A stretch of DNA of 64,000 nt, from NCBI GenBank assembly GCA_016182965.1, contig JACPFM010000195.1, forward strand, positions 62,001-126,000. The letters run 5' to 3'. Positions 2,158 through 64,000 of this stretch are shown one piece after another (the stretch's first letter is position 1; each line of letters opens with the position of its first letter). This DNA is from Deltaproteobacteria bacterium (GTDB lineage Bacteria > Myxococcota_A > Polyangia > Polyangiales > JADJMO01). A program made the position numbers and the translations under genes. The notes beneath the pieces were generated by a model, which was not told where the DNA came from, made no database searches, and saw only the letters and a list, made by a program, of their open reading frames with translations.

Positions 2158-5142
2158 ATGAAACAGGACATCATCCTCGCCGGCGTCGGCGGTCAGGGCA
2201 TTCTCACGATCGCGGAGGCCATCTCGTCGGCGGCGCTGGTGCGCGGCCTCGAGGTCAAGCAGGCCGAGGTGCACGGCATGAGCCAGCGCGGCGGCGCCGT
2301 GCAGTCGCACCTGCGGCTGGCCGATCAGCCGATCTACAGCGACACCATCGGCCTCGGCCACGCCGACCTGGTCATCGCCGCCGAGCCGCTCGAGTCGCTG
2401 CGCTACACCCAGTACCTCTCGAGCCAGGGCATGCTGCTCACGAGCAGCAGCGCGTTCGTTAACATCGGCAACTACCCGCCCATCGAGTCGGTGCTCGAGA
2501 AGGTGGCCAGGTGGCCGCGCCACTGCCTGGTCGACGCCGAACGCATCGCGCGCGCCGCTGGCTCCGGCCGCGCGGCGAACATCGTGATGCTCGGGGCCGC
2601 GTCGCTCTTCCTCAAGATCGAGCCGCGCGAGCTCGAGGAGTCCGTCGCCCAGCGCTTCGCCAGCAAGGGCGCGCGCGTCGTCGAGGTGAACCGGCGCGCC
2701 TTCCGCTTCGGCCGCAACGCCGCCCAGGCCTATCTCAGCGGCCTCGAGCGCGGCGGCACGTCGGTCGCCGTCCGGCACTGGATCGAGACGCTGTCGGCCG
2801 ACCACCTCGCCCGCCCCGAGCCGCCCGACGCGCCGGTGTTCGATCCGGCCCAGACCGGCGAGGGCCTGACCGGCGCCGAGAGCCACGCCGTCGAGAACGC
2901 GCTGCTCCAGGCGTACGAGGAGCACCGCCCGCTCTTCGAGCACGAGGTCTACCAGATCGTGCAGCTGGTCGGCGCGATCAGCCCGCCGCTCCACGTGTTC
3001 CTCAAGCCCGAGGATCTCATCTCCGAGGAGCAGCTCGCGCAGTTCCCCGGAGACAAGGTCGTCCTCAAGATCGTCTCCCCGCAGCTGACCCACAAGTCCG
3101 ACGCGCAGGGCGTCATCTTCGTGCCCAAGCGCTACGACCTCGTGCGCGCGGAGATCGATCGCTTCATCGAGCGGCACCGCGCGAACGCCGAGGTGCGGGG
3201 CGTGCTGGTGGTGGAGTTCGTGGAGCAGGCGGCGAGCGGCTTCGGTCGCGAGCTGTTCGTCGGCATCCGCGCCACCCGCGAGTTCGGGCCGGTCATCGCC
3301 GCCGGCCTCGGCGGCGTCGACACCGAGTACCTGGCGGCCAAGATGCGCCCCGGCCTCGCGGTGGCCAAGGCGGTCGCCGCGGACCTGAAGGCCGAGGACT
3401 TCCTCGAGCTGTTCAAGAAGACGGTCGCCTACGAGATCCTCGCGGGCAAGGTGCGCGGTCACAAGCGCATCGTGTCCGACGGCGAGCTGCTCCGGTGCTT
3501 CCGCGCGTTCATCCACCTCGCCCAGAAGTTCTGCGTCGATCGCGGCGAGGTCGGGCCCGATCTCGCCGAGCTCGAGGTCAACCCGTTCGCCTTCCGCGGC
3601 AACGCGCTGGTCCCGCTCGACGGCCGCGCCCGGCTGAAGACGGCGGCCAAGGCGAAGCCGGCGCGCCCGATCGAGAAGCTCTCGAGCATGCTCGAGCCGC
3701 AGTCGATCGCCGTCCTCGGCGCCTCGGCGACCTCGGTGAACTTCGGACGCATCATCCTCCGCAACGTCATCGAGGCCGGCTTCGATCGCTCGCGCCTCTA
3801 CGCGATCAAGGACGGGCTGCGGGAGCTCGACGGCGCGCGCTGCGTCCCCACGCTGCGCGACGTGCCCGAGCGCATCGATCTCCTGGTCATCGCCGCGGCG
3901 GCGCAGCAGCTCCCGCAGCTGATCACCGAGGCGATCGACAGCGGCAAGGTGCAGTCGGTCATCCTCGTCCCCGGCGGCGTCGGCGAGACCGAGGGCACGT
4001 CCGATCTGGTCACCCAGGTCGAGGCGGCGATCGCCCGCGGGCGATCGCGCCCCGACGGCGGTCCGGCGTTCCTCGGCCCGAACAGCCTCGGCGTGCTGTC
4101 GCGCCCGGGCAAGTACGACACGCTGTTCATCCCGGCTTCGCGCCTCGACAAGCGGCTTCACGCGCCGGCGCGCAAGGCGGCGATCCTCTCGCAGAGCGGC
4201 GCGTTCATCATCACCCGCCTGAGCAACCTCGAGACGCTCGATCCGGCGTTCTCCGTCTCCATCGGCAACCAGCTCGACGTCACCGTCTCCGATCTGCTCG
4301 CCGCCGTCGGCACGCGCGACGACATCGCGGTGGTCGGGATCTACGCCGAGGGCTTCAACGACCTCGACGGCCTGTCGCTGCTGCGCCAGATCGCGGCCGT
4401 CACCAAGGCCGGCAAGGACGTCATCCTCTACAAGGCGGGGCGCACCGAGTCGGGCCGCAGCGCCGCCGCGGGGCACACCGCGTCGGTCGCCGGCGACTAC
4501 GACATCTGCCAGGCGGCCGCCGAGCAGGCCGGCGCGATCGTCGTCGACACCTTCAAGGAGTTCGAGCAGCTCCTCGAGCTGTGCACCGCGCTCCACGACA
4601 AGACCGTGTCGGGCGTCCGGCTCGGCGTCGTCTCCAACGCCGGCTTCGAGACGGTCGGCATGGCCGACGCCGTCCTGGGGCAGCGCTACCGCGTCGAGAT
4701 CGCCAAGCTCGGCGACGACACGCAGGCGCGGCTGCGGACCGCGCTCGAGAAGGGCGGCCTCGGCAAGCTGGTCAACGCGCGCAACCCCATCGACCTCACG
4801 CCGATGGCCAACGAGGCGACGTACGAAGAGGCCACGCGCGCGCTGCTCGAGGCCGACGACGTCGACGCCGTCATCGTCGGCATCGTGCCGCTGACGGCGA
4901 TGCTCAAGACCGTCCCCGGCGAGCTCGAGGCCGACGACGCGCTGCCCGCGAGGTTGGGGCGGTGCTTCGCCGACTCGAAGAAGCCGCTGGTCGCGGTCGT
5001 CGACTCCGGTCCGGCGTACGAGCCGCTGGCGCGCGCGATCCGCAAGGCGGGGCTGCCGGTGTTCCGGTCGTCCGATCAGGCGGTGCGGTCGCTCGGCAGG
5101 TACGTGTACCGACAGGCAGGGCACACGCTCGCGGCGGAGTGA
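2158..5142 (+). CDS. iorB: Indolepyruvate oxidoreductase beta subunit fused to ADP-forming acyl-CoA synthetase
   Basis: A 994-residue fusion of three parts. Residues 1-205 are the IorB/gamma-type 2-oxoacid oxidoreductase domain, with AGVGGQGILT at the N-terminus and the EVHGMSQRGG stretch. Residues about 235-485 form an ATP-grasp domain (beta part of ADP-forming acetyl-CoA synthetase, KIVSPQLTHKSDAQGV). Residues about 500-990 are a CoA-binding domain (SIAVLGASATSVNFGR) followed by the succinyl-CoA-ligase flavodoxin-like domains. The GHT motif contains the phosphorylatable His773. The expected chemistry is arylpyruvate to arylacetyl-CoA with IorA, then arylacetyl-CoA plus ADP and phosphate to arylacetate plus ATP. 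That pairing is known as separate enzymes in archaea; its fusion into one chain is the notable point. A GGAG precedes ATG 2158, and a strong hairpin follows the stop. Confidence 0.9.
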   Translation: MKQDIILAGVGGQGILTIAEAISSAALVRGLEVKQAEVHGMSQRGGAVQSHLRLADQPIYSDTIGLGHADLVIAAEPLESLRYTQYLSSQGMLLTSSSAFVNIGNYPPIESVLEKVARWPRHCLVDAERIARAAGSGRAANIVMLGAASLFLKIEPRELEESVAQRFASKGARVVEVNRRAFRFGRNAAQAYLSGLERGGTSVAVRHWIETLSADHLARPEPPDAPVFDPAQTGEGLTGAESHAVENALLQAYEEHRPLFEHEVYQIVQLVGAISPPLHVFLKPEDLISEEQLAQFPGDKVVLKIVSPQLTHKSDAQGVIFVPKRYDLVRAEIDRFIERHRANAEVRGVLVVEFVEQAASGFGRELFVGIRATREFGPVIAAGLGGVDTEYLAAKMRPGLAVAKAVAADLKAEDFLELFKKTVAYEILAGKVRGHKRIVSDGELLRCFRAFIHLAQKFCVDRGEVGPDLAELEVNPFAFRGNALVPLDGRARLKTAAKAKPARPIEKLSSMLEPQSIAVLGASATSVNFGRIILRNVIEAGFDRSRLYAIKDGLRELDGARCVPTLRDVPERIDLLVIAAAAQQLPQLITEAIDSGKVQSVILVPGGVGETEGTSDLVTQVEAAIARGRSRPDGGPAFLGPNSLGVLSRPGKYDTLFIPASRLDKRLHAPARKAAILSQSGAFIITRLSNLETLDPAFSVSIGNQLDVTVSDLLAAVGTRDDIAVVGIYAEGFNDLDGLSLLRQIAAVTKAGKDVILYKAGRTESGRSAAAGHTASVAGDYDICQAAAEQAGAIVVDTFKEFEQLLELCTALHDKTVSGVRLGVVSNAGFETVGMADAVLGQRYRVEIAKLGDDTQARLRTALEKGGLGKLVNARNPIDLTPMANEATYEEATRALLEADDVDAVIVGIVPLTAMLKTVPGELEADDALPARLGRCFADSKKPLVAVVDSGPAYEPLARAIRKAGLPVFRSSDQAVRSLGRYVYRQAGHTLAAE

Positions 5143-12369: not shown

Positions 12370-13930
12370 ACGTGTTGTCGCCGCCGAGGACGGCGTCCTT
12401 GGTGACGTCGGCGAGGAAGGGGCGCACGTCGAGGCCGGGGCACCAGCCGCCGCGGCCGAAGTACCAGGTGCCGTGCTGGTTCGGGACCACGCCCTCCTCG
12501 ACGCGCTTGCGGCAGCCGTCGTTCGACTTCGCCATCGGGAACTCGAGCGAGCGCCTCGTGCCGCCGTTGAGCGTGAAGTGGTGCGTGTGGTTGCAGAACT
12601 CGGCGCACTGATCGGTCTCGGAGCCGTGACCGGTGATCAGCGCGTAGAGCTCCGCCTTCTTGGTGCCGGTCGGGACGTCGACCTTCACCGGCGGGTGGGC
12701 GGCTCCGTACTTGTCGTTCAGCGCGCCGCCCTCGAAGAGGCGGACGGCGCTCACCGGGCGCATTCCCTTGCCCGTGTTCGACAGACGCAGCGAGAGCGAC
12801 GCGACGTAGTTGGCGGGCCGCGGGTCCCATTGCTTCGACGCGTACCAGCGCAGCGTCTTGCGGCCGCCGCCCTTCAGGAACGCGAGCATCCCGCTGATGT
12901 CGGTGACCCAACGCCCCTCGCGCCAGTAGGTGGTGATCCAGCGCGCGAGCTCGACGTCGCACGCGGGCTTCCCGCCGTCGGACGGGGCGTCGCCGCAGAG
13001 ACGCAGATCGGAGATGTAGTCCCATGCGCCGCACTCGCCGTCGCGGTGGTTGACGCAGTTCATCGTCAGGTCGACCTCGAGCGTGTCGAAGGTCGCCATG
13101 GTGGCCTCGTCGGGGAGCTCCACCTCCTTGTAGACGTCCTCGACCACCACCTCGTCCCTCATCATCGGGACGATCGTCGCCTTCACGGACGCGAGCTTCG
13201 CCTCGCGCGCGCGCTCGAACTCCCAGTAGAGCGGCTCCTGCGCAGCGAACGAGAGATCCGGCGTGATGCCGGCGCTGCCGCCGAGGCGACCGAGCATGCC
13301 GACCTCCCGCACGTGCTGGGTGCGATCGACGCCGAAGTGGATGCGGTCGTAGCGCTCATAGGGGAGCTTCGCCTTGGTGCGCTCGCGGAAGACGTCGCCG
13401 AGCCAGCCCTCGAGCTCGTCGGCGCGCGTGGTCACGAAGTGGACGCGCGCGGCCCAATGCTCGTCGAGGATCGGCGCGGCCGCCGCGACGAACGCATCGA
13501 AGGTGGCGCGATCGTCGCGGTAGAGGAAGAACCAGTGCATGTTCTTCGGCGACTGCGCGAGCAGCTTCTGCAGCGACAGGGGCTTGAACAGCGACTTGGA
13601 GTACGCGTTGGTCGACTGATACGCGACGAACACGTAGTGGTCCTCGCCGTCGAACTTCTCCTCGAACGACCAATCACCCGCGGTGGTCGGCGCGACGAAC
13701 GGTCCGGCCACGCTGCGCGGCGTCGTGCCGTACGGTCCCCTCTTGAACGGGGACGGCGCATCGACCGCGACGTCGTCATTGGCGTCACTGACGTCACTGA
13801 CGTCACTGACGTCGGCGGCGGCCTGCGTCGCCTCCTCGCGTGAGCAACCCCCGACGAATGGGACGAGGACGAACGGGAGGAGGACGAACGGGAGGAGGGC
13901 GAAGGGGAGGTGGGCGAGGCGCGCGCGCAT
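12275..13930 (-). CDS. PNGase F-like secreted lipoprotein
   Basis: A 551-residue lipoprotein (signal with repeated PF[VA]L units ending VPFVGGC). The C-terminal half resembles the paired beta-sandwich domains of peptide-N-glycosidase F: MNCVNHRDGECGAWDY followed by ELARWITTYWREGRW, then CAEFCNHTHHFTLNGG and GTWYFGRGGWCPG. PNGase F enzymes remove N-linked glycans from glycoproteins by cleaving the Asn-glycan amide. The N-terminal half (about residues 60-270) is an additional domain not recognised. Whether the PNGase catalytic acids (Asp60, Glu118 and Glu206 in the Flavobacterium enzyme) are kept needs an alignment. A Cys-rich, metal- or disulfide-stabilised fold is likely. The esterase gene lies 119 bases upstream on the same strand. 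The start could also be ATG at 13942. Confidence 0.75.
   Translation of the reverse strand: MRARLAHLPFALLPFVLLPFVLVPFVGGCSREEATQAAADVSDVSDVSDANDDVAVDAPSPFKRGPYGTTPRSVAGPFVAPTTAGDWSFEEKFDGEDHYVFVAYQSTNAYSKSLFKPLSLQKLLAQSPKNMHWFFLYRDDRATFDAFVAAAAPILDEHWAARVHFVTTRADELEGWLGDVFRERTKAKLPYERYDRIHFGVDRTQHVREVGMLGRLGGSAGITPDLSFAAQEPLYWEFERAREAKLASVKATIVPMMRDEVVVEDVYKEVELPDEATMATFDTLEVDLTMNCVNHRDGECGAWDYISDLRLCGDAPSDGGKPACDVELARWITTYWREGRWVTDISGMLAFLKGGGRKTLRWYASKQWDPRPANYVASLSLRLSNTGKGMRPVSAVRLFEGGALNDKYGAAHPPVKVDVPTGTKKAELYALITGHGSETDQCAEFCNHTHHFTLNGGTRRSLEFPMAKSNDGCRKRVEEGVVPNQHGTWYFGRGGWCPGLDVRPFLADVTKDAVLGGDNTFSYEALIGTSAPAAGSAYGNVHMNAYLVLWR
13784..13810. repeat. Three tandem 9-bp units GTCACTGAC in a coding linker
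   Basis: Perfect triplicate of a nine-base unit encoding Ser-Asp-Val repeats just after the lipobox of the PNGase-like lipoprotein. A few dozen bases further toward the start codon, the signal peptide itself contains degenerate repeats encoding PFVLL units. Both look like slippage-generated in-frame repeats. Confidence 0.85.
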
Positions 13931-53112: not shown

Positions 53113-53565
53113 ATGGCCCACATCCAGAAGATCCTCGTGCCCGTCGACGGCTCGCCGGCGTCGATCGCGGCGCTCGAGCAGGCGGTCACGCTCGCGGATG
53201 ACCTCTCGGCGACGGTGGACGTGCTTCACATTCGCAAGCGCGGTGCAGCCGAGACCGACCGCGACATGGACGACGCCGTCGCAGCAGCCAGGAGCCGGCT
53301 CGGCGGCCGGTTCGCGATGCGAACGGAGAGCGGCGATCCCGTCGGGAAGATCCTCGAGGTCGCCGATGCACAGCGACCCGATCTCATCGTGATGGGAACC
53401 CACGGACGGGTGGGGCGCCTGCGAGCGCTCGTCGGTAGCGTCGCGGAGTCCGTCGTGCGCAACGCGCCGTGTCCCGTGTTGACGGTGCGCCGTTCGGTCG
53501 GCGACGAAGAGTCGTTCAGCGAGCGCATTCATCACCGGACGGGCGTGGCGCGCCCCTCGTACTGA
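53113..53565 (+). CDS. Universal stress protein (UspA family)
   Basis: A 150-residue cytoplasmic protein with the UspA fold. KILVPVDGSPASIAALEQAV opens the nucleotide-binding region, and the ATP motif GTHGRVGRLRALVGSVAE (G-2x-G-9x-GS) is intact, so it should bind ATP. Members of this family aid survival under starvation or redox stress. A short C-terminal extension after the fold is rich in Glu, His and Arg. Repeats upstream could be regulatory. Confidence 0.92.
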   Translation: MAHIQKILVPVDGSPASIAALEQAVTLADDLSATVDVLHIRKRGAAETDRDMDDAVAAARSRLGGRFAMRTESGDPVGKILEVADAQRPDLIVMGTHGRVGRLRALVGSVAESVVRNAPCPVLTVRRSVGDEESFSERIHHRTGVARPSY

Positions 53566-55041: not shown

Positions 55042-56736
55042 TCACTCGGGACGCTTCGGCCGATCCGCGGGCGGATCACTGCGGAACCGCACGATCCTCC
55101 GCACCAGCTCCTCGCCGTACGCATCCTCCGGCCCCGACTTCGGGACCTGCACCGGCTGCACCGGGAAGTGCGCCCAGAACGTCGTCCCGAGACCCACCCG
55201 TGACGTCACCTCGAGCCGGCCGCCGATCTCCGCGAGCAGCTGCACCACCGTCGACAGCCCGACCTTGCTCGGCCGACCGCGTGCGTCGCGCGCCGGCTCC
55301 GCGGGCGTGCGGAAGATCTCCTGGATGCGATCCTCGTCGATCCCGCGCCCGGTGTCGGTCACCCGCACCGACAGCTGCTCGGCGTCGCCTCCGAGCTCGA
55401 CCTCGATGCGACCGCGATCCGTGTACTTGACCGCATTCGTCAGGAGGTTGTCGACCACCCGGTCGAAGACGAGCGAGTCCACCTCGATCGCGGTCGGCGC
55501 GGCGCCGGTCGCGGTGACGGCGACGCCGATGTCGCGCGGGTAGACCAGCGCGCGCAGGCGGCTCTGCAGCCGGTCGACCATCGGCGCGATCTCCAGGTGA
55601 TCGGTCGCGCGCGCGATCTTCGTGCCGTGGACCGCGCGCACCAGCTCGTCGACCAGGCGATCGAGCTGATCGACCGCGGCGGTGTGGTCGTCGAGCATCT
55701 CGCGGTGGCTCGGGTCGTCGTGGAGCGCGCGGCGCAGCTGCCACTCGAGGAGCACGAGCGTCGAGATCGGGTTGCGCAGGTCGTGCGACACGCCGCGGAC
55801 GGTGTGCGCGTGCGCCTCGCGCTCCGCGGCGAAGCGCGCGATCAGCCGCTGCGACGCCGCGACGCGCTCGGCGAGCTGCGCCTCGACGTGACGGGTCCAC
55901 TTCTGTTGCCGCTCGTGCAGCTCGACGAGCTCTCGCCGCGCCTCCGCCTCCTCGAGCACGAGGTCCCGTAGCGCCTGCGCCGATTGCGCGGCGAAGTCCC
56001 GGTGGGCGCGGGCCTCGCGCTCGCGGGCCCACGCGCGACCCGCGAGGAACCCTGCGAGCGGCAGCGAGACCATCGCGAGCTGCGTTCCGTACGCGCGCGC
56101 GCTCACGAGCGCGACGGTCAGGCCGAGCGCGAGCCCGAGCACCTCGGGCAGCAGCCTCCGTCGCTCGGGGACGTGCACGTGGTAGATGCAGTGCGGATCG
56201 CCCCACGCGATGCACGCGCTCTCCTCGAAGAGTGCCGGCGGCAGCCCCCACACGGTGGGCAGCGCCGCCAGCTGCCCGATGCGCGAGAGGCAGACGAGGC
56301 GACTCTCGACGCGATCGCTCCAGTAGCGGACGCGAAGCCGACCGCGCCCGACCTCGGTCACCTCCGCGTGGCTGATGCTCGACAGCGTGTCGATCGACCG
56401 GAGCCCGCGCACGAACAGCTCCATCGGCGAGGTCGCCCACGCGAGGTAGCGCATCGGGCCGAGCGTCTCGGCCAACCGGTAGCCGAACGCCTCGGTGAAG
56501 CGGTCGTCGTCCGGGTAGTGACGGCGCGCGTTCGCGAGGAGGCGCTCGAGCTCGTCGAGCGGAGCCCAGTGCCCGCGCGCGACGTCCTCGCGCGTGATGT
56601 GCGTCTCCTCGAGCACCTCGGCGACCACGGCGGGACCCGCGGTCTCCTCGAGGTGCCGGAGGAGACCGCCGACGATACGGAGGCTCAGCTCGCCGCGTCC
56701 GCGGTCCGCGTCCTCGGACGGGGGTGCATCGATCAT
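55042..56736 (-). CDS. Sensor histidine kinase with unusual N-terminal domain
   Basis: A 564-residue kinase. Residues 1-195 form a domain not recognised, with the features LLRHLEETAGPAVVAEVLEE, FGYRLAETLGP and ESACIAWGDPHCIYHV. The last of these resembles V4R/heme-NO-binding (HNOB) layouts. Two membrane-like segments (near 205-245) lead to a coiled coil. The HisKA motif is VSHDLRNPISTL (phospho-His near 316). The HATPase has NLLTNAVKYTDRG and DTGRGI. The start ATG overlaps the response regulator stop (ATGA), so the two are a cognate pair. The ligand is unknown. Confidence 0.88.
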   Translation of the reverse strand: MIDAPPSEDADRGRGELSLRIVGGLLRHLEETAGPAVVAEVLEETHITREDVARGHWAPLDELERLLANARRHYPDDDRFTEAFGYRLAETLGPMRYLAWATSPMELFVRGLRSIDTLSSISHAEVTEVGRGRLRVRYWSDRVESRLVCLSRIGQLAALPTVWGLPPALFEESACIAWGDPHCIYHVHVPERRRLLPEVLGLALGLTVALVSARAYGTQLAMVSLPLAGFLAGRAWAREREARAHRDFAAQSAQALRDLVLEEAEARRELVELHERQQKWTRHVEAQLAERVAASQRLIARFAAEREAHAHTVRGVSHDLRNPISTLVLLEWQLRRALHDDPSHREMLDDHTAAVDQLDRLVDELVRAVHGTKIARATDHLEIAPMVDRLQSRLRALVYPRDIGVAVTATGAAPTAIEVDSLVFDRVVDNLLTNAVKYTDRGRIEVELGGDAEQLSVRVTDTGRGIDEDRIQEIFRTPAEPARDARGRPSKVGLSTVVQLLAEIGGRLEVTSRVGLGTTFWAHFPVQPVQVPKSGPEDAYGEELVRRIVRFRSDPPADRPKRPE

Positions 56737-57353
56737 CCCGTCCGTTCGCCGAAGACGTTGCGATGGATCTCGGAGACGGCGTCCGCGAGGGCGTTCTTGT
56801 GCACCTTGCGCAGCAGGTTGCGCACGATGGTCTTCGTCGTCGTCTCCTCGACGCCCAGGGCGTCGGCGAGCTCGTGGCGCTGCACGCCCGACGCCGCGAG
56901 CCGCAGTGCCTCCTCCTCGCGCGGAGATAGCGCATGCTTCTGGCTGAACGCGCGGACGTCCTCCAGCAATTGGTCGTGCAGTCGGGTCCGCTCGCGGCGG
57001 CTCCGCTCGACGAACGCGAGGAGGTTCGCCTGGCGCGGCGGCTTCGGCAGGTAGTACGCGTCGGAGAGCTGGGCCTCCGCGATGACCTCGGTGCCGCGGT
57101 TCGCCGTCAGCACCAGCGCCGGCACGCGCACTCCGGCGGCGCGCACCCTCCGCAGCCAGTCGAGGCCGGAGCCGTCGCCGAGCCCCACGTCCACGAGCAG
57201 CCCGGTCATCCCGTGCAGCCTCGGCATCGCCGCGTCGGCCGCAGCGATCGACGGCGCGACCTCGACGGCTCCGAACTGCGAGAGGTAGCGAGCGAGCGTG
57301 CGCGCGAGCGCAGTGTCGTCCTCGACGACGAGGAACAGGAACGGGGGGCTCAC
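56733..57353 (-). CDS. LuxR-type response regulator
   Basis: A 206-residue two-domain regulator. The receiver shows LVVEDDTALARTL, phospho-acceptor Asp55 in LLVDVGLGDG and a lysine in YYLPKPPRQ. The C-terminal LuxR helix-turn-helix (LSPREEEALRLAASGVQRHE, ALGVEETTTKTIVRNLLRK) is intact, so it should bind DNA. GTG 57353 was chosen from the fold start; ATG 57416 would add 21 residues. The histidine kinase gene overlaps the stop by four bases. It lies 63 bases downstream of the second RsbT/RsbW-like gene. Confidence 0.88.
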   Translation of the reverse strand: MSPPFLFLVVEDDTALARTLARYLSQFGAVEVAPSIAAADAAMPRLHGMTGLLVDVGLGDGSGLDWLRRVRAAGVRVPALVLTANRGTEVIAEAQLSDAYYLPKPPRQANLLAFVERSRRERTRLHDQLLEDVRAFSQKHALSPREEEALRLAASGVQRHELADALGVEETTTKTIVRNLLRKVHKNALADAVSEIHRNVFGERTG

Positions 57354-57416
57354 TGCGGCGCAGTGTACGTCGCCCGCGGCGCGAGCGTCACCGTTTGTCG
57401 CATCGCGCACGTGCAC

Positions 57417-57908
57417 CTAGCGCTGCCTACTTCGCCCGAGTTGATGCAGATCTACGTATCGGACAACGCGGATCTCCTTTCCGCCGGCGAAAGCCATGTG
57501 CTCGAACGTGTGCGTCATCCGCGCGATCGCGCCGAGCCCCGTGCCCAGCCCTGCGTGGCGGACGAGGCGGTCGGGCGGGATCGGCCCGGTGTCGTCGCAG
57601 CCGTCCAGCATCGCCGTCGGCAGGTCGTGGATCGGTCTCCCCGAGTCGCGCGCGACGGCCTCCACCCCGACGCCCCGCTCCGGATCATCCACAATTCGGA
57701 CACGCAGCTCACCCGACCCCGCGTGTCGCAGGATGTTCGTGCAGAGCTCGGTGGCGACGATCGCGAGCTCGACCTGGCCGCGCGCCGGGAAGCCCGCGAG
57801 CACCGCCTTGCGGCGGGCGGCCTGGGCGGCGACGTGCACGTCGCCCCACTCGCGCACCGCGACGGTGTAGGTCGCGTCAGGGGCGGTCGGTGCGTTCTTT
57901 TCGGGCAT
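57417..57908 (-). CDS. RsbT/RsbW-type ATP-binding protein (second copy)
   Basis: A 163-residue GHKL ATPase of the anti-sigma/switch kinase type. The N-box is VATELCTNILRHA and the G-box GLGTGLGAIARMTH. Members phosphorylate STAS antagonists, turning the partner switch off or on. It overlaps the RsbR-like gene by 32 bases, which supports cotranscription. Whether it acts as RsbT (stressosome kinase) or RsbW (anti-sigma) cannot be told; no sigma factor gene is present in the window. Confidence 0.82.
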   Translation of the reverse strand: MPEKNAPTAPDATYTVAVREWGDVHVAAQAARRKAVLAGFPARGQVELAIVATELCTNILRHAGSGELRVRIVDDPERGVGVEAVARDSGRPIHDLPTAMLDGCDDTGPIPPDRLVRHAGLGTGLGAIARMTHTFEHMAFAGGKEIRVVRYVDLHQLGRSRQR

Positions 57909-58521
57909 GACGCCGCGCCACCCAGAACCGGAGGCCGTCGCGGAGGCTCCGGTGTGTCTGTACGCCTTGAAGATCGACGCCGATGTGCACGACGGTCTGC
58001 GCGATCGCCGGGCTGAGGCCGGTGAGGAAGCAGTGCGCCCCGAGGAGCCGCACCGACTTTGCCATGCGCAGGAAGTGATCGGCCGTTCGGGTGTCCATCA
58101 CCTCGATGCCGGTGATGTCGATGATGGCGCACTCCGCCTCCTTCGCGACGATCGCCTTGAGGAGCTCCTCGGTCATCTCGGCCGAGCGGTGCGAGTCCAT
58201 GACGCCGACCACCGGCAGGCAGAGCACGCCGTCCCACACCTCCATGATCGGGGTGGACAGATCGCGGATCGCCTCGCGTTGCAGCTCGATCGTCGCGAGC
58301 TTGTCCTCGAGCTCCGCCTGGTAGGCGCGCGCGCGCTCCCGCTCCTCCGCGAGCGACGCCACCATCTCGTTGATGGCGACCCGCAAGGCGCCGAACGGGT
58401 CGGACTCCGGCAGATCGGTCGACAGCCGGACCGCGTAGTCGCCGGCGCCGACGTCGGCGAGCGTCAGCAGGATGTCGGCGATCGAGCCCGACACGTCCAT
58501 GATCGGTTGCATCGTGTCCAA
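57877..58521 (-). CDS. rsbR: RsbR-like stressosome protein (STAS domain)
   Basis: A 214-residue protein. The N-terminal 85 residues form a HAMP-like or helical linker (ADILLTLADVGAGDYAVRLS, then a coiled coil). The C-terminal STAS domain has LCLPVVGVMDSHR, VMDTRTADHFLRMAKSVRLL (Thr144 matches the phosphosite Thr171 of Bacillus RsbR) and LTGLSPAIAQTVVHIG (Thr176 may match Thr205). No globin domain is present, so the sensor part differs from Bacillus. The AGGGAGG Shine-Dalgarno five bases before TTG 58521 favours this start over ATG 58512. It lies 10 bases after the 190 aa gene. Confidence 0.84.
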   Translation of the reverse strand: MDTMQPIMDVSGSIADILLTLADVGAGDYAVRLSTDLPESDPFGALRVAINEMVASLAEERERARAYQAELEDKLATIELQREAIRDLSTPIMEVWDGVLCLPVVGVMDSHRSAEMTEELLKAIVAKEAECAIIDITGIEVMDTRTADHFLRMAKSVRLLGAHCFLTGLSPAIAQTVVHIGVDLQGVQTHRSLRDGLRFWVARRHARKERTDRP

Positions 58522-58531
58522 AGCAGCCTCC

Positions 58532-59104
58532 CTACGACCAGTCGATGTCGAAGCGCCATCCCGACGAGGCCGCGCCGTTCCCGAGCGGCCCGTAGCGCAC
58601 GCGCACGTCGGCGAAGCCCATCGCGGCGAAGACCCCCTCCATCCACCCCGCCGACACCGGCGCCACGTGCGCGAAGCCGTCGACGTCGCGCAGGGTCATC
58701 ACCGCCGTGCCCTGGCCGAAGCCCGACGGATCGCACTCGAAGACGCCGAACGAGAACATCCGCGGCCAGATGTCGCCGGCCTTCTTCAAGAACATCGGCG
58801 GCGTCAGCACCTTGAGCACGAGGCGCATGAAGGTCCCCGTCGCGGCGTCCGAGATGAAGCGGCCGAGCGCGCGCGCCTTGCGCTCCCCCTCCTCCGGGTC
58901 CGAAACGACGGCGACCATCGCGTCGAGGAACGCGACCTGATCGGCGATCGGGTACCAGTCGCCCGTCCGCAGCGCGCGGAGCCGCGCCTTGAGCTCCTCG
59001 GGCAGGCGCGCGTGGATGCGATCGCGCTCCTGCGCCGAGAACGCGCTGTCGATGAAGAGCAGCGTCTGCTCGAGGTTGAATCCCTTGGTGAGCCGATCCG
59101 TCAT
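58532..59104 (-). CDS. 190-residue protein embedded in stressosome operon, possible sensor
   Basis: Not assigned to a known family. Features: helical N-terminus (FNLEQTLLFIDSAFSAQERD), WYPIADQVAFLDAMVAVV, RFISDAATGTFMRLV and a late sandwich part (WPRMFSFGVFECDPSGF, AGWMEGVFAAMGF). The overall layout looks like the unrecognised N-terminal domain of the downstream kinase. Both have a helical start, then a GxFxEG-like turn, a strand with bulky aromatic residues and a late WxEGVF/WGDPHC type feature. A GGAAGGGAGG lies seven bases before ATG 59104. It lies between rsbS-like and rsbR-like genes, so it is a good candidate for a partner or sensor of the switch. Confidence 0.55.
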   Translation of the reverse strand: MTDRLTKGFNLEQTLLFIDSAFSAQERDRIHARLPEELKARLRALRTGDWYPIADQVAFLDAMVAVVSDPEEGERKARALGRFISDAATGTFMRLVLKVLTPPMFLKKAGDIWPRMFSFGVFECDPSGFGQGTAVMTLRDVDGFAHVAPVSAGWMEGVFAAMGFADVRVRYGPLGNGAASSGWRFDIDWS

Positions 59105-59126
59105 GCCGCGCCTCCCTTCCGGTTCC

Positions 59127-59570
59127 TCACCGCTCCTCGACGTCGAACGCGAACTCGCCACGAACGGCGCCGACGCGATCGTCGACGCGCAGGTCGATGT
59201 CGTCGCGCTCGACCACGCGTCGGAGCCCGACCAGCTCGAGCGCGTTCGCCAGCGTGCGAGCCGTGTCGACGTGCGGCATGTCGATGCCCATCGTCTGCAC
59301 CGTCAGCGCCGCCTCCGGGCTCATCCCCGAGAAGACCGTCCGCGTCCCCATCAGCGCGGCCGACGTCGCCAGCCGAGAGAGCACCGCGCAGAGGTGGCTG
59401 TCGATCATCCACGCGCCCGTGAGGTCGATGACCAGCGCGTGCACGCCGCCGCGGTGGATGCGCCCGAGCACCTCCTCGCAGAGGTCGACGGCGAGCCGAT
59501 CGTGCACCTCGCCCTGGATGGGGACGAGGAGGACGTTCCAGAACGAGAGGATCGGGATGCGTTCGGTCAC
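59127..59570 (-). CDS. rsbS: RsbS-like STAS protein
   Basis: A 147-residue single STAS domain. The N-terminal stretch IPILSFWNVLLVPIQGEVHD, then ALVIDLTGAWMIDSHL and SGMSPEAALTVQTMGI, match RsbS of the stressosome. The conserved phospho-acceptor Ser (Ser58, like Ser59 of Bacillus RsbS) is present in MIDSHL. It should be phosphorylated by RsbT and dephosphorylated by RsbX. GTG 59570 overlaps the upstream phosphatase stop by four bases (GTGA). Confidence 0.9.
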   Translation of the reverse strand: MTERIPILSFWNVLLVPIQGEVHDRLAVDLCEEVLGRIHRGGVHALVIDLTGAWMIDSHLCAVLSRLATSAALMGTRTVFSGMSPEAALTVQTMGIDMPHVDTARTLANALELVGLRRVVERDDIDLRVDDRVGAVRGEFAFDVEER

Positions 59571-60139
59571 GGGGCCCTCACGTCGGCGACGAGCACCGAG
59601 GCGTCGTCGTGCGGGTAGGCGAAGCGTTGGACGATCGCGCGGCAGGCCGCCTCGGGATCGAGCGCGCGCAGCTCGTCGAGTCGCAGGCGGGTGCCGGAGA
59701 CGCCGTCGCTGAAGAGCAGCACGCGCGATCCCCGCGGCACGGCCCCTTCGAAGCTGCGGAACCTCCGCACCGAGCTCCCGAGGATCCCCGGGCTGAGCAC
59801 CACCGGGACGCTCCTCGGATCGGTGCGCAGCTCGACGTTGCCGACGCCGCAGCCGGTGAGCCGCTCGCCTTCGAGCAGGCACACCATCGCCGCCGCGCCG
59901 CGCGTGCCGCGGAGCGCGTCGTTCAGCTCGGACTGCACCCCGACGGCACCGCCGTCGAGCGCGACGCGCGCGAGGCAGGTCAGGGCGAGCGAGGTCACCT
60001 CGGCGGCGAGCGGCCCGTGGCCGAGCGCGTCGACCACCGCGAGCAGGGTCCGCCCGCCCTCGTCGCGCACGATCGCGCCGTCGCCGCAGGCGACCTCGCC
60101 GACGCGCGGGCGCACGAGGTGGAAGCGCGCCGCGTTCAC
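59567..60139 (-). CDS. rsbX: RsbX-like PP2C phosphatase
   Basis: A 190-residue SpoIIE/PP2C-type phosphatase. Metal motifs GDGAIVRDEGG, LAVVDALGHGPLA and DDASVLVADV are visible, and VLLFSDGVSGT supplies another conserved Asp. It should reset RsbR and RsbS by dephosphorylation. GTG 60139 overlaps the upstream RsbT-like stop by four bases, and its stop overlaps the rsbS-like start by four. Confidence 0.88.
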   Translation of the reverse strand: MNAARFHLVRPRVGEVACGDGAIVRDEGGRTLLAVVDALGHGPLAAEVTSLALTCLARVALDGGAVGVQSELNDALRGTRGAAAMVCLLEGERLTGCGVGNVELRTDPRSVPVVLSPGILGSSVRRFRSFEGAVPRGSRVLLFSDGVSGTRLRLDELRALDPEAACRAIVQRFAYPHDDASVLVADVRAP

Positions 60140-60780
60140 GTGCGCACCTGCACGTCGACCTCGGTCCCGCTCGGTCCGGTCTTCACGGCGAAGGACTCCG
60201 ACAGGCGCTTGGTGCCGAGGAGGCCGAGGCCGAGCCCCGTCGCGCTCCGATAACGTCCGCTCATGATCTCCTGCAGGTTGGGGATGCCGCGCCCCCGATC
60301 GCGCGCACGGATGCAGACGATCCGCCGGTCCTTGGCCTTGGGCTCGAGCTCGATGGTGCCTCCCGGCGTGTAGGAGACGATGTTGCGGGCCAGCTCGGCG
60401 ACGACCGTGGCGACGCGCTGTGTCGCGAAGCTCCCCGCGCCGATCTCCTCGCAGAGCTCGCGCGTCGCGCTGCGCGCGACCACGATGTCGTCCTCCGACC
60501 GGATCTCGATCCGGCGCACGGTGGGCGCCGGCGGGGGCACCGTTCGGCCGGTCGGCGGCGTCAACGACATGAGCTCGTCGCGGAGCCGCGTCGGATCGAC
60601 CGAGCCGAAGAGCTTCAGCGCGCGCTGCAGGTCGGGGAGGATCTGGGGCACGTGATCGAGGCGCATGTCCGTCGACGCGATCCCGCGACGTCGCAGCGCC
60701 GCCCCGAGCGCTCCCTCGGCGTTGAGGCGCGACACGTGCTTCGACAGCACCGCGACGACCCTCGAGTGAGCCTGGTTCAT
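60136..60780 (-). CDS. rsbT: RsbT-like switch kinase with N-terminal extension
   Basis: A 214-residue protein. Residues 1-90 form a helical extension (VVAVLSKHVSRLNAEGALG, LPDLQRALKLFGSV) not found in Bacillus RsbT. The rest is a GHKL ATPase with ELARNIVSYTPGGTIEL, ARDRGRGIPNLQEIM and TGLGLGLLGTKRL, closely RsbT-like. GGTGGAG lies seven bases before ATG 60780. It starts 23 bases after the ketoacyl synthase stop, so it is probably part of the same transcript. Confidence 0.9.
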   Translation of the reverse strand: MNQAHSRVVAVLSKHVSRLNAEGALGAALRRRGIASTDMRLDHVPQILPDLQRALKLFGSVDPTRLRDELMSLTPPTGRTVPPPAPTVRRIEIRSEDDIVVARSATRELCEEIGAGSFATQRVATVVAELARNIVSYTPGGTIELEPKAKDRRIVCIRARDRGRGIPNLQEIMSGRYRSATGLGLGLLGTKRLSESFAVKTGPSGTEVDVQVRT

Positions 60781-60803: not shown

Positions 60804-61880
60804 TCAGAGCGCGCGGGGACCGAGGGCGGGCTCGTTCCAGCGCATGACCGCGGCCGCCGCGGACGACGCGCTGCCGATCGACTGCACCATGACGAGATCG
60901 CCGCGCCGCAGCCGACCGAGCCGCGCGGCGTGGTGGAGGTTCGCGGGCATGAGCGCGGGCCCGATGTTCGCGGTCCACGCGTTCACCGACGTGGTGCGCT
61001 CGGGCGCCACCCCGAGCACCCTCGCGGCGAAGGGCGCGAACCAGGGGACCGGCGTGTGGAAGACGAAGAGCTCGATGTCCGACAGGCGCACGCCGGCGCG
61101 GTCGGCGGCGCGAACGCAGCACTCGCGCACGTACTTCTCGGCCGTCTCGGCGAGCACCCGACCGGTCGAGGGGGAGGCGACCATCCCGATCCTCGGATAG
61201 CCCTCCTCGTCGACCTCGAGCTCCCAGGAGAAGGTGCCGCACGTGTCGGCGGAGTGGATGGACGTCCCGCCGAGGTAGCCGAGGCCCTCCTCGACCGGGC
61301 CGACGACGAACGCGCCCGCGCCGTCGCCGAGGAACCACGAGAGCGTGTCGCGCTCGTCGACGTAACGCGAGTAGGTGCACGAGGCGACGACGAGCACCTG
61401 CCGGTGCTCGCCGGAGCGCACCAGCGCCGAGGCGGTCTGCAAGCCGACGACCGATCCGGAGCAGGCCGTCTCCAGGTTCCACGCCGCGCATCGCGCGCCG
61501 ATCGCCTCGGCGAGCCGCGGCGCGTTGCCGACGCCGATCTGGTTCGGCAGGAACGACGCAACGATGATGCAGTCGACGTCGCGGCCGCCGAGCCGCGCGG
61601 CGGCGAGCGCCTCCTGCGCCGCCTTGAGCTCGATCGAGAGCGCCGACTCGTCGGGCGCGAGCACGCGCCGCTCGACCGCACCGCGGAACGGGTCGGCCAG
61701 GTAGGGCTCCATCTCCGAGGCGAACGGGTTGCGCGGCGCCCCCTTCTGCCAGAGCCGCGCGAGCGCCTTCTCCTCTGCGGCCGCGACGACCTCCGGGTGT
61801 CGCTCGCGGAAATGGGCGTTGTTGCGCACGATGCGCGGGAACGCGGTCGCGAGTGACCGCATGCCGACCGAGATGCTCAT
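60804..61880 (-). CDS. 3-oxoacyl-ACP synthase III family protein
   Basis: A 358-residue thiolase-fold enzyme. The nucleophile Cys140 lies in WNLETACSGSVVG, with His275 in FVFHTPVPWF and Asn305 in WTANIGPALM, giving the Cys-His-Asn triad of FabH-like synthases. It therefore should catalyse condensation or acyl transfer with a CoA or ACP thioester. Substrate is unknown. ATG overlaps the ThDP enzyme stop (ATGA). Not the housekeeping fabH by context, since no fatty-acid genes are near. Confidence 0.9.
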   Translation of the reverse strand: MSISVGMRSLATAFPRIVRNNAHFRERHPEVVAAAEEKALARLWQKGAPRNPFASEMEPYLADPFRGAVERRVLAPDESALSIELKAAQEALAAARLGGRDVDCIIVASFLPNQIGVGNAPRLAEAIGARCAAWNLETACSGSVVGLQTASALVRSGEHRQVLVVASCTYSRYVDERDTLSWFLGDGAGAFVVGPVEEGLGYLGGTSIHSADTCGTFSWELEVDEEGYPRIGMVASPSTGRVLAETAEKYVRECCVRAADRAGVRLSDIELFVFHTPVPWFAPFAARVLGVAPERTTSVNAWTANIGPALMPANLHHAARLGRLRRGDLVMVQSIGSASSAAAAVMRWNEPALGPRAL

Positions 61881-63625
61881 GACTCGTCTCCCGTCCTCTG
61901 CGCGATCCCTTGATCGATCAGGCTCGAATTGCGCTTGCGCGTGGGCGCGTCCTCGTCTCCGGCGAGGTCGACGTCGACCACGAACGGCCCGGCCGCGTCC
62001 ATCGCCTCGGCGAGCGCCGCGTCGAGCTCGAGCTCGCTGCGCACCCGGAGACCGCGCGCGCCGACCGCCCGCGCGATGCTGGCGAAGTCGGCGCGTGGGA
62101 TCCGCGTGGCGAAGGGCGCGAGCCCGACCGACCGCATCCCCTGCTCGATCATCCCGTACTGGCTGTCGTTGAGCACGATCCACACCGCCGGCACGCGGTG
62201 CTCGACGGCGGTGCTCACCTCGCTGTTCATCAGCATCGCCCCGTCGCCGACCACGGCGATGGCCTTGCCGCCGGCGGCGATCGCCGCGCCGACGACCCCG
62301 CAGGTCGCGTGCCCCATCGAGCCGAAGCCCGTGCTGGCGCGGTGCACCGGGCGCGAGAAACGGAGCGAGTGCGTCGTCCACGCGAACGAGTTGCCGGCCT
62401 CGGCGAGGACGGGCACCTCGCCGCGCGCGTCGAGCACGCGTTGGAGCGACGCCATCAGCACCCGCGCGCGCACCGGGCCGCCCGAGCGCGGGGCAGGGGC
62501 GGCTCCGAACGGTGAGGCCGAGGGCGCGGGCGCGCGAGAGACGAGCCTTCCCCGCGCACGTTCGAGCAGCCCGTCGAGCAGCTCGCCCGCGTCGGACACG
62601 AGGGCGGTGGTCGCGACGTCGGGGTAGGCGCCGCCGAACGCGGTCTCGTCGACGTCGACGTGGATCAGCCGCTCGCGCGGCAGCATCCGCCGATCCCAGA
62701 ACGAGGTCATCTCGCCGAGGCGCGAGCCGAGCACGACGATGCAGTCCGGCCGGTGCGCGGCGAGGTACTCGTCGACCGCGGCGTGCCCGCCGAGCCCCGT
62801 CACGCCTAGGTAGAGCGGGTGCCCCTCGGGGAAGATCCCCTTGCCGCGCGGCGTGCTCATCACCGGCGCGCGCGTGGCCTCGGCGAACCTCCGGACCTGC
62901 TCGGGGCACCGCGCCGCGCCCGCGCCGACCCACAGGACGAACGAGCGCCCGGCGAGCTGATCGACGACGCGATCGAGCATCGCCGGGGCGCACCCGAGCG
63001 GCCCGGTGTCGTGGCGCACCGCCCGCAGCATCGAGGGCGCCGGCGCCGTCTGCGCCGCGATCGAGATCTGGACGTGCGCGAGGAAGGGGCCGGGGCGCGC
63101 GAGGCCGCGCGCGAGGGCCGGCGCCACCGCCGCGAGCGCCGCCGGATCGTCGACGAGCGCGGAGTAGTCGAACAGCGACTCGCCGGGCGCGAGCCCGCGG
63201 ACGTCGAACCCGTGCGTCTCCTGGAACGCGCGCCGACCGCGGTTGGCGGGCGCGGTGGCCGGAGAGATCAGCACCACCTTCGCCCCCTCCCAACGCGCGG
63301 CCGCCATGCCGGCGACGACGTTGGCGAGGCCGGGGCCCGCGGTGGTGAACACCACGACCGGGCGCCCGCTGGCGAACCACGCCTCGATCGCCGCGAAGGC
63401 CGCGCCGGACTCGTGCCGGAAGTGCACGAGCTCGATCGCGCTCTCGTTCAGCGCATGCGCGATCGGCGCGACCGCGCCTCCGATCAGCCCGAACGCGTGC
63501 CTGACGCCGGCGTCGGTCAGCGTGCGCACGAGCTCGCTCGCGACCGTGCGCGGAACGGCGATGCGGGTCTGCGACGACGGCCTCTCGGAGAGCGGGATCG
63601 CCGCCTCGAAGACCGGGGAGCTCAT
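61877..63625 (-). CDS. ThDP-dependent carboligase/decarboxylase (acetolactate synthase-like)
   Basis: A 582-residue enzyme with the three-domain layout of acetolactate synthase and pyruvate oxidase. The activator Glu is in HFRHESGAAFAA (Glu72), the central domain has VGAGAARCPEQVRRFAEAT and the ThDP/metal motif is VGDGAMLMNSEVSTAVEH with NDSQYGMIEQ. It should form or cleave C-C bonds next to a carbonyl. Product is unknown. ATG 63625 overlaps the upstream hydrolase stop by four bases, while ATG 63634 is a weaker alternative. Together with the ketoacyl synthase and hydrolase it forms a small biosynthetic trio. Confidence 0.88.
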   Translation of the reverse strand: MSSPVFEAAIPLSERPSSQTRIAVPRTVASELVRTLTDAGVRHAFGLIGGAVAPIAHALNESAIELVHFRHESGAAFAAIEAWFASGRPVVVFTTAGPGLANVVAGMAAARWEGAKVVLISPATAPANRGRRAFQETHGFDVRGLAPGESLFDYSALVDDPAALAAVAPALARGLARPGPFLAHVQISIAAQTAPAPSMLRAVRHDTGPLGCAPAMLDRVVDQLAGRSFVLWVGAGAARCPEQVRRFAEATRAPVMSTPRGKGIFPEGHPLYLGVTGLGGHAAVDEYLAAHRPDCIVVLGSRLGEMTSFWDRRMLPRERLIHVDVDETAFGGAYPDVATTALVSDAGELLDGLLERARGRLVSRAPAPSASPFGAAPAPRSGGPVRARVLMASLQRVLDARGEVPVLAEAGNSFAWTTHSLRFSRPVHRASTGFGSMGHATCGVVGAAIAAGGKAIAVVGDGAMLMNSEVSTAVEHRVPAVWIVLNDSQYGMIEQGMRSVGLAPFATRIPRADFASIARAVGARGLRVRSELELDAALAEAMDAAGPFVVDVDLAGDEDAPTRKRNSSLIDQGIAQRTGDES

Positions 63626-64000
63626 GGGTTGCATGCGACCTCGCGGATCGACGGACGGCCGGCGTCGAGGAAGTCGAACGTCGCGGACCAGAGCTGCTCT
63701 CGCCCGGGCTCGAACGGCAGGGAGTGCGCCCCACCCTCGATCACGCGGAGCGACGCCGGCCCGCCGTAGGCCGCCTGGAACGCGGCGACGTCCTCCGGCG
63801 GCGTCACCGGATCGGCGGTCCCCCAGATCTGCAGCATCGGCGCGCGGGCGAGCGACGCGTCGAACAGCGGGAGCGTGAAGCCCTCGAGGGTGGGCCCGGT
63901 CGCGTACGTGCCGGGGAGCGCCGTGCTCAGCCAGGTCACCGCCGCGGGCTCGCTGTTCGACAGGAGCAGCCCGTACGCCTCGGGCGTCGTCGCGACGTAC
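63622..64000 (-). CDS. Alpha/beta hydrolase, C-terminal part
   Basis: Continues beyond the right edge. The visible 125 residues hold the catalytic Asp region (WGTADPVTPPEDVAAF) and His (EGGAHSLPFEPG) of an alpha/beta hydrolase. The nucleophile lies outside. Its stop overlaps the ThDP gene start by four bases, placing it in the same operon. Confidence 0.78.
   Translation of the reverse strand, partial: YVATTPEAYGLLLSNSEPAAVTWLSTALPGTYATGPTLEGFTLPLFDASLARAPMLQIWGTADPVTPPEDVAAFQAAYGGPASLRVIEGGAHSLPFEPGREQLWSATFDFLDAGRPSIREVACNP

Follow-up and report, generated by a model that had tools for sequence, protein, structure and literature searches.

The stretch of DNA analysed here (the window; 64,000 nucleotides, positions 62,001 to 126,000 of contig JACPFM010000195.1 in the Myxococcota_A assembly GCA_016182965.1) carries the genes of a stressosome in a permuted order, T-X-S-U-R-T2, within a conserved block of eleven genes (Table 1). 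An alpha/beta hydrolase (HYD), a thiamine-diphosphate enzyme (ThDP) and a condensing enzyme (KASIII) precede the stressosome genes, and a response regulator (RR) and a histidine kinase (HK) follow them, the full order being HYD-ThDP-KASIII-T-X-S-U-R-T2-RR-HK. The explanation that would best account for the whole, at a probability of about 0.5, is a stressosome devoted to a metabolite operon, with U as a detachable sensor and a two-component system as its output. In this lineage stressosomes may govern how a metabolite is made or responded to, rather than acting on a stress sigma factor. The locus bears on what stressosomes sense and control outside the Firmicutes: its conserved and sharply bounded gene order ties the stressosome to a candidate sensor, a candidate switch and the enzymes that these may regulate, which makes it possible to test signal, output and target in one place.

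Table 1. Genes of the block, in block order. Coordinates are positions within the 64-kb window; all genes lie on the minus strand.
Gene	Position	Strand	Product	Basis or remark
HYD	63622..64000, continuing past the window to ~64740	-	alpha/beta hydrolase, probable lipoprotein	Hydrolase_4 1.5e-10
ThDP	61877..63634	-	thiamine-diphosphate enzyme, ScyA-related (acyloin-forming type)	TPP_enzyme N/M/C above cut-off
KASIII	60804..61880	-	FabH-like condensing enzyme	ACP_syn_III 8e-18, C-terminal domain 3e-12
T	60136..60780	-	RsbT-like switch kinase	HATPase_c_2; fold match SpoIIAB/RsbW; tree position
X	59567..60139	-	RsbX-like PP2C feedback phosphatase	SpoIIE 6e-11
S	59127..59570	-	RsbS scaffold, phosphosite Ser58	single STAS domain
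U	58532..59104	-	putative ligand sensor, V4R/DUF2378-superfamily-like	Pfam matches of relatives; fusion to RsbR
R	57877..58521	-	RsbR, HAMP-like N-terminus and STAS	TTG start, or ATG at 58512
T2	57417..57908	-	second RsbW/RsbT-family ATPase	HATPase_c_2 5e-8, above Pfam cut-off
RR	56733..57416	-	response regulator, REC and LuxR-type helix-turn-helix	directly after T2; true start possibly downstream of 57416
HK	55042..56736	-	histidine kinase with V4R/DUF2378-like N-terminal sensor	HATPase_c 5e-22

The RsbR, RsbS, RsbT and RsbX genes almost certainly represent a stressosome module. An RsbS with a STAS domain and its serine, an RsbR with a variable N-terminus, a STAS domain and its threonine, a GHKL-type kinase RsbT and a PP2C-type RsbX were all found. 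Solved stressosome proteins were the best structural relatives of RsbR and RsbS, and RsbX-type phosphatases (3zt9, 1e-18; 3w40, 1e-9) those of X. RsbS matched the solved RsbS 6jhk with an E value of 1e-20 and the STAS domain of RsbR matched the solved stressosome RsbR 7o0i with 9e-28; in these comparisons Ser58 and Thr144 were aligned with the known phosphosites, and RsbR has a second phosphosite threonine, Thr176. A preliminary description of this DNA had proposed RsbT-, RsbX-, RsbS- and RsbR-like genes in this order with both phosphosites intact; its coordinates and order were right, the identities proved to be far above chance, and both residues are present. It had also noted that RsbR lacks a globin sensor, and indeed no globin match was obtained in the Pfam domain search, the N-terminus giving instead a HAMP-like match which is weak (E 0.009) and falls short of the Pfam cut-off. 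The products of RsbR, RsbS and RsbT would be expected to form a complex.

The HATPase_c_2 domain of RsbT exceeded the Pfam cut-off, and the fold search listed in Table 1 was made with an AlphaFold model of pLDDT 92.5. The protein begins with an extension of 80 residues, predicted as four helices, which is common to the RsbT proteins of Myxococcota. RsbU_N was tried as an identity for this extension and rejected, since seven sequences gave no Pfam match and the fold search matched the kinase domain only. In T2 the G1 box is altered, D-x-G-R-P replacing D-x-G-x-G both in the window and in its counterpart at L234:8544-9035, and nucleotide binding may be altered by this change of motif.

All eleven genes were found in identical order in a genome of another genus of the family (G435, locus L234), with 77.8% nucleotide identity over 9,871 bp. 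The similarity has sharp limits, a palindrome in front of the first gene, HYD, on one side and the stop codon of the last gene, HK, on the other; the flanks are unrelated. The best kept genes are R (91%), S (85%), U (80%) and T (79%), while the identity is 70% for RR, 70% for HK and 69% for HYD. The four-base overlaps T/X, X/S and RR/HK and the 32-bp overlap R/T2 are retained in L234. Thus the eleven genes very probably form one conserved, operon-like unit. Since neither RsbT nor KASIII had a close match in one genome of the same genus, the block is accessory. The preliminary description had given four-base overlaps for the stressosome genes, which holds for T/X and X/S and for no other junction from T to T2: S and U are separated by 22 bp, U and R by 10 bp, and R overlaps T2 by 32 bp. 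The spacing between T2 and RR is 0 bp and RR overlaps HK by 4 bp. At the other side KASIII ends 23 bp before RsbT and overlaps ThDP by 4 bp, and the ThDP gene overlaps HYD. The earlier description had overlooked that the operon starts three genes further upstream with metabolite enzymes, that T2 is a standard partner and that U resembles a ligand sensor.

The palindrome, ATCCTCCC-AGC-GGGATGAT, is near-perfect and lies ~80 nt before the ATG of HYD, just outside the window; the contig ends ~0.9 kb past HYD. The pattern ATCMTCCC-N3-GGGATGAT occurred once in each of the two carrier genomes and was absent from three relatives; as it was derived from both carriers, only its absence elsewhere is informative. 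A consensus promoter and terminator scan found nothing, such a scan being uninformative for a GC-rich genome.

U is, by sequence, only a distant relative of the V4R/DUF2378 superfamily: V4R was weakly matched in 4 of 17 and DUF2378 in 3 of 17 relatives (E values up to 1; best 3.7e-5 and 1.5e-4). In locus L243 U is fused to RsbR in a 400-residue U-linker-STAS protein, the U part of which is 31% identical to the window protein (E 1.5e-15) and the R part 53% (E 1e-59), and in L084, L235 and L247 U adjoins rsbR. In a profile comparison by HHalign the U family was aligned with the N-terminal domain of HK over 192 columns with 99% probability, whereas neither a reversed control nor any of seven unrelated profiles gave a result; therefore the sensor of the stressosome and that of the kinase next to it belong to a common superfamily. 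The single-sequence model of U was too poor (pLDDT 52), and the fold search with it gave no meaningful match. Phenolics are the ligands of V4R domains in phenol-sensing regulators (PMC10715001). Taken together, U is probably, with some reserve, the ligand-sensor subunit of the stressosome, and the locus indicates that a sensor domain can separate from RsbR to form a subunit of its own. Upstream of HYD, just outside the window, a paralogue of the U family with a V4R-like Cys motif was observed (G000:C50:126824-127390; L089:16825-17391, minus strand); it is not included in the block kept in L234.

The permuted order had been taken for a peculiarity of one locus. This view was abandoned after T-X-S-R-T2 and other permutations were found across related Myxococcota loci and in the RsbT tree, where the Myxococcota proteins with the 80-residue extension form a separate clade. 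A subclade of 24 rows (support 100/96), the RsbT of the window among them, contains all permuted orders sampled, mostly T-X-S(-R-T2). Judged from the tree, the permuted order is old and common to a clade. In cyanobacteria, Pseudomonadota, Acidobacteriota and others the order is R-S-T-(T2X), T2 and X being one fused protein, and a protein with RsbT-like, HK and REC parts usually comes next. The fusion of T2 to RsbX was seen in more than 50 loci and is the rule in most other phyla, and T2 is thus a regular part of the module. The genome of the window has a second locus (L093, G000:C134:1-14000) with the canonical R-S-T-(T2X) order, the RsbT of which falls in the other clade. These data define a Myxococcota branch of permuted stressosomes which coexists with the canonical kind in one genome. 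A REC domain is encoded ~1 kb downstream of R-S-T-(T2X) in L093.

The three upstream genes point to a metabolite. ThDP matched the ScyA-related subfamily NF035927 at 7e-190, below the strict cut-off (632 bits against 1000), and ScyA itself (NF035923) with 593 bits, below the curated cut-off of 1020; its closest structure in the PDB was BbmA (8x3x, 2e-62). KASIII matched FabH structures with 3e-25. ThDP enzymes of the ScyA and carbazole types make acyloins, and KASIII-like partners occur in carbazole pathways (PMC7466098, PMC2726228). By analogy, the odds are about even that ThDP, KASIII and HYD give an acyloin-type product.

The association of these enzymes with stressosomes recurs in other families. 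In L275 and L276 (G127 and G069) a ThDP-KASIII pair, with HYD and a LuxR-type regulator behind it, is divergent from T2-T-X-S-R; in L274 (G095) the pair adjoins T2-T-X-S, and in L249 (G063) HYD precedes T2-T-S-R. Five KASIII-RsbT pairs within 5 kb were observed, in at least two lineages, against 0.046 expected by random placement, a rough expectation which assumes independent genomes. As the window RsbT does not group in the tree as a sister to the RsbT of G127 or of G069, the link between enzymes and stressosome is not the simple inheritance of one arrangement.

On the output, the preliminary description had stated that no sigma factor is near, so that something else, perhaps the adjacent response regulator, must serve. 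The window contains no sigma70 region 2; the closest one on the contig is ~103 kb away (the genome has 48), and a nearby sigma-factor output was accordingly rejected. A domain search revealed neither RsbU nor RsbV among the genes of the locus, which is thus no operon of the sigma-B type. A module free of sigma-B is well supported, and the adjacent RR gained support as its output, because RR and HK lie within the sharply bounded block and two-component outputs are usual for non-Firmicute stressosomes (PMC9237108, PMC10014275). That the HK/RR pair is the output we regard as an evenly balanced proposition.

In the mechanism suggested, RsbR and RsbS would form the stressosome core holding the kinase RsbT, and U would provide the ligand-sensing input which is carried elsewhere as a fused N-terminal domain of RsbR. 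When a ligand is bound by U, RsbT would phosphorylate Thr144 of RsbR and Ser58 of RsbS and would then be freed, the core being reset by RsbX, probably together with T2. The freed RsbT, or T2, would modulate the neighbouring HK/RR in place of an RsbU/sigma-B cascade. RR would regulate the operon by acting at the palindrome in front of its first gene, a putative binding site, and the enzymes for the probable acyloin-type metabolite would be made under stressosome control. The complex, these signalling steps, the RR site, the ligand and the product are inferred. A self-contained circuit, in which U and the homologous HK sensor would both bind the acyloin-type product itself, is a speculative extension and rather improbable; if true, the stressosome would integrate a quorum-like or feedback signal, and we found no description of such a use.

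Several observations weigh against this model. The RR-HK pair was seen directly behind a stressosome only in the two carriers of the block, most Myxococcota stressosome loci of the RsbT clade have no adjoining HK, and the relatives of HK mostly have no stressosome or matching RR next to them. The RsbT-like domain of the canonical outputs is missing from HK, no RsbU_N-like target domain was found, and the RRs of L275 and L276 are only weakly similar to that of the window. ThDP-KASIII pairs are often found without a stressosome, and U of the window itself gave no significant Pfam match, V4R (PF02830) and DUF2378 (PF09536) staying below the cut-off. Since most loci of the clade are without an adjoining HK and the window HK is without an RsbT-like domain, the mechanism is weakest where the signal passes to HK/RR. 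In a rival reading a functional stressosome merely travels with an unrelated metabolite operon and two-component system, and its real output is unlinked, for example a distant target of RsbT or T2 or one of the sigma factors, of which the genome has 48. In favour of this, HYD/ThDP/KASIII and two-component neighbours are mostly missing from the T-X-S-R-T2 loci of the clade, and the relatives of HK and of the enzymes are often located elsewhere. Such a passive association is less probable than a dedicated one, as the exact block bounds and overlaps are kept between two genera, the same enzymes are repeatedly linked to T-X-S stressosomes in other arrangements, and the sensors of HK and U belong to one superfamily.

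The homology of these two sensor domains, the missing RsbT-interaction domain of HK and the clade stressosomes without a neighbouring HK could also be read as parallel inputs, U and HK each sensing a related ligand and acting independently on the operon. We consider this somewhat unlikely, a little more so than an unlinked output: the hybrid HK behind the RsbR-RsbS-RsbT-RsbX (RSTX) genes of other phyla has an RsbT-like domain, which points to direct hand-over, and in Vibrio the deletion of the two-component kinase and that of RSTX had similar phenotypes (PMC10014275). The permuted order and the altered G1 box read from T2 might finally suggest a non-functional or decaying remnant. This is very improbable, since phosphosites and catalytic motifs appear intact, R, S and U are better kept between the genera than HK and RR, and the permuted order is old and clade-wide.

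Among the closest described systems is RSTX with VvD1/VvD2 of Vibrio vulnificus (PMC9237108, PMC10014275), which likewise has RsbR, RsbS, RsbT and RsbX without sigma-B and RsbU/V/W, and in which RsbX is encoded with the module. A two-component pair lies directly downstream in both cases, and in the window this position is kept in L234. The window locus is, however, not of the Vibrio type, since the Vibrio order is R-S-T-X with a heme-globin RsbR, whereas here it is T-X-S-U-R-T2 with a HAMP-like RsbR. Furthermore, the window has the separate V4R-like U, the second ATPase and metabolite enzymes upstream, and its RR is of the REC-LuxR type, while the Vibrio output is cyclic-di-GMP. The R-S-T-(T2+X)-(RsbT-like+HK+REC) modules of more than 50 loci share five components and an output of the two-component type with the window, but there T2 and X are fused, the order is canonical, the hybrid HK has an RsbT-like domain and RsbT belongs to a separate clade. 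The sigma-B stressosome of Bacillus subtilis has homologues of RsbR, RsbS, RsbT and RsbX with the phosphosites; the window differs in the lack of RsbU, RsbV and sigma-B, in gene order and in the extra genes. Putative RsbRST clusters of Sorangium cellulosum (PMC2887360) are also myxobacterial and stressosome-like, with SpoIIE-type phosphatases. On the enzyme side, the acyloin-type ThDP enzyme ScyA of the scytonemin cluster stands beside the two-component system NpF1277/NpF1278 (PMC2726228), and ThDP and KASIII-like enzymes are paired in carbazole CqsB3/CqsB1 (PMC7466098); these clusters differ in having no stressosome as described, and their sequences are merely related to those of the window.

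Some further observations were made around these loci. In many phyla RSTX is followed by a hybrid histidine kinase whose N-terminus is an RsbT-like domain (L107:8968-11112 and similar loci), which suggests that this domain is what the output kinase uses to bind the stressosome. In a metagenome-assembled genome of Nannocystineae a methyl-accepting chemotaxis protein gene (L104:7138-8835) directly precedes T-X-R-T2-S-R, possibly a different output or input. Small proteins of ~150 residues recur around permuted Myxococcota stressosomes (L109:205-657, 1452-1946 and 4322-4810; L276:6379-6831 and 13454-13894), and those tested gave no Pfam match. A reading of the locus as a defence system was dropped, as PADLOC gave no match. 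Downstream of the block, a universal-stress-protein-like open reading frame is present on the plus strand at 53113-53565 of the window.

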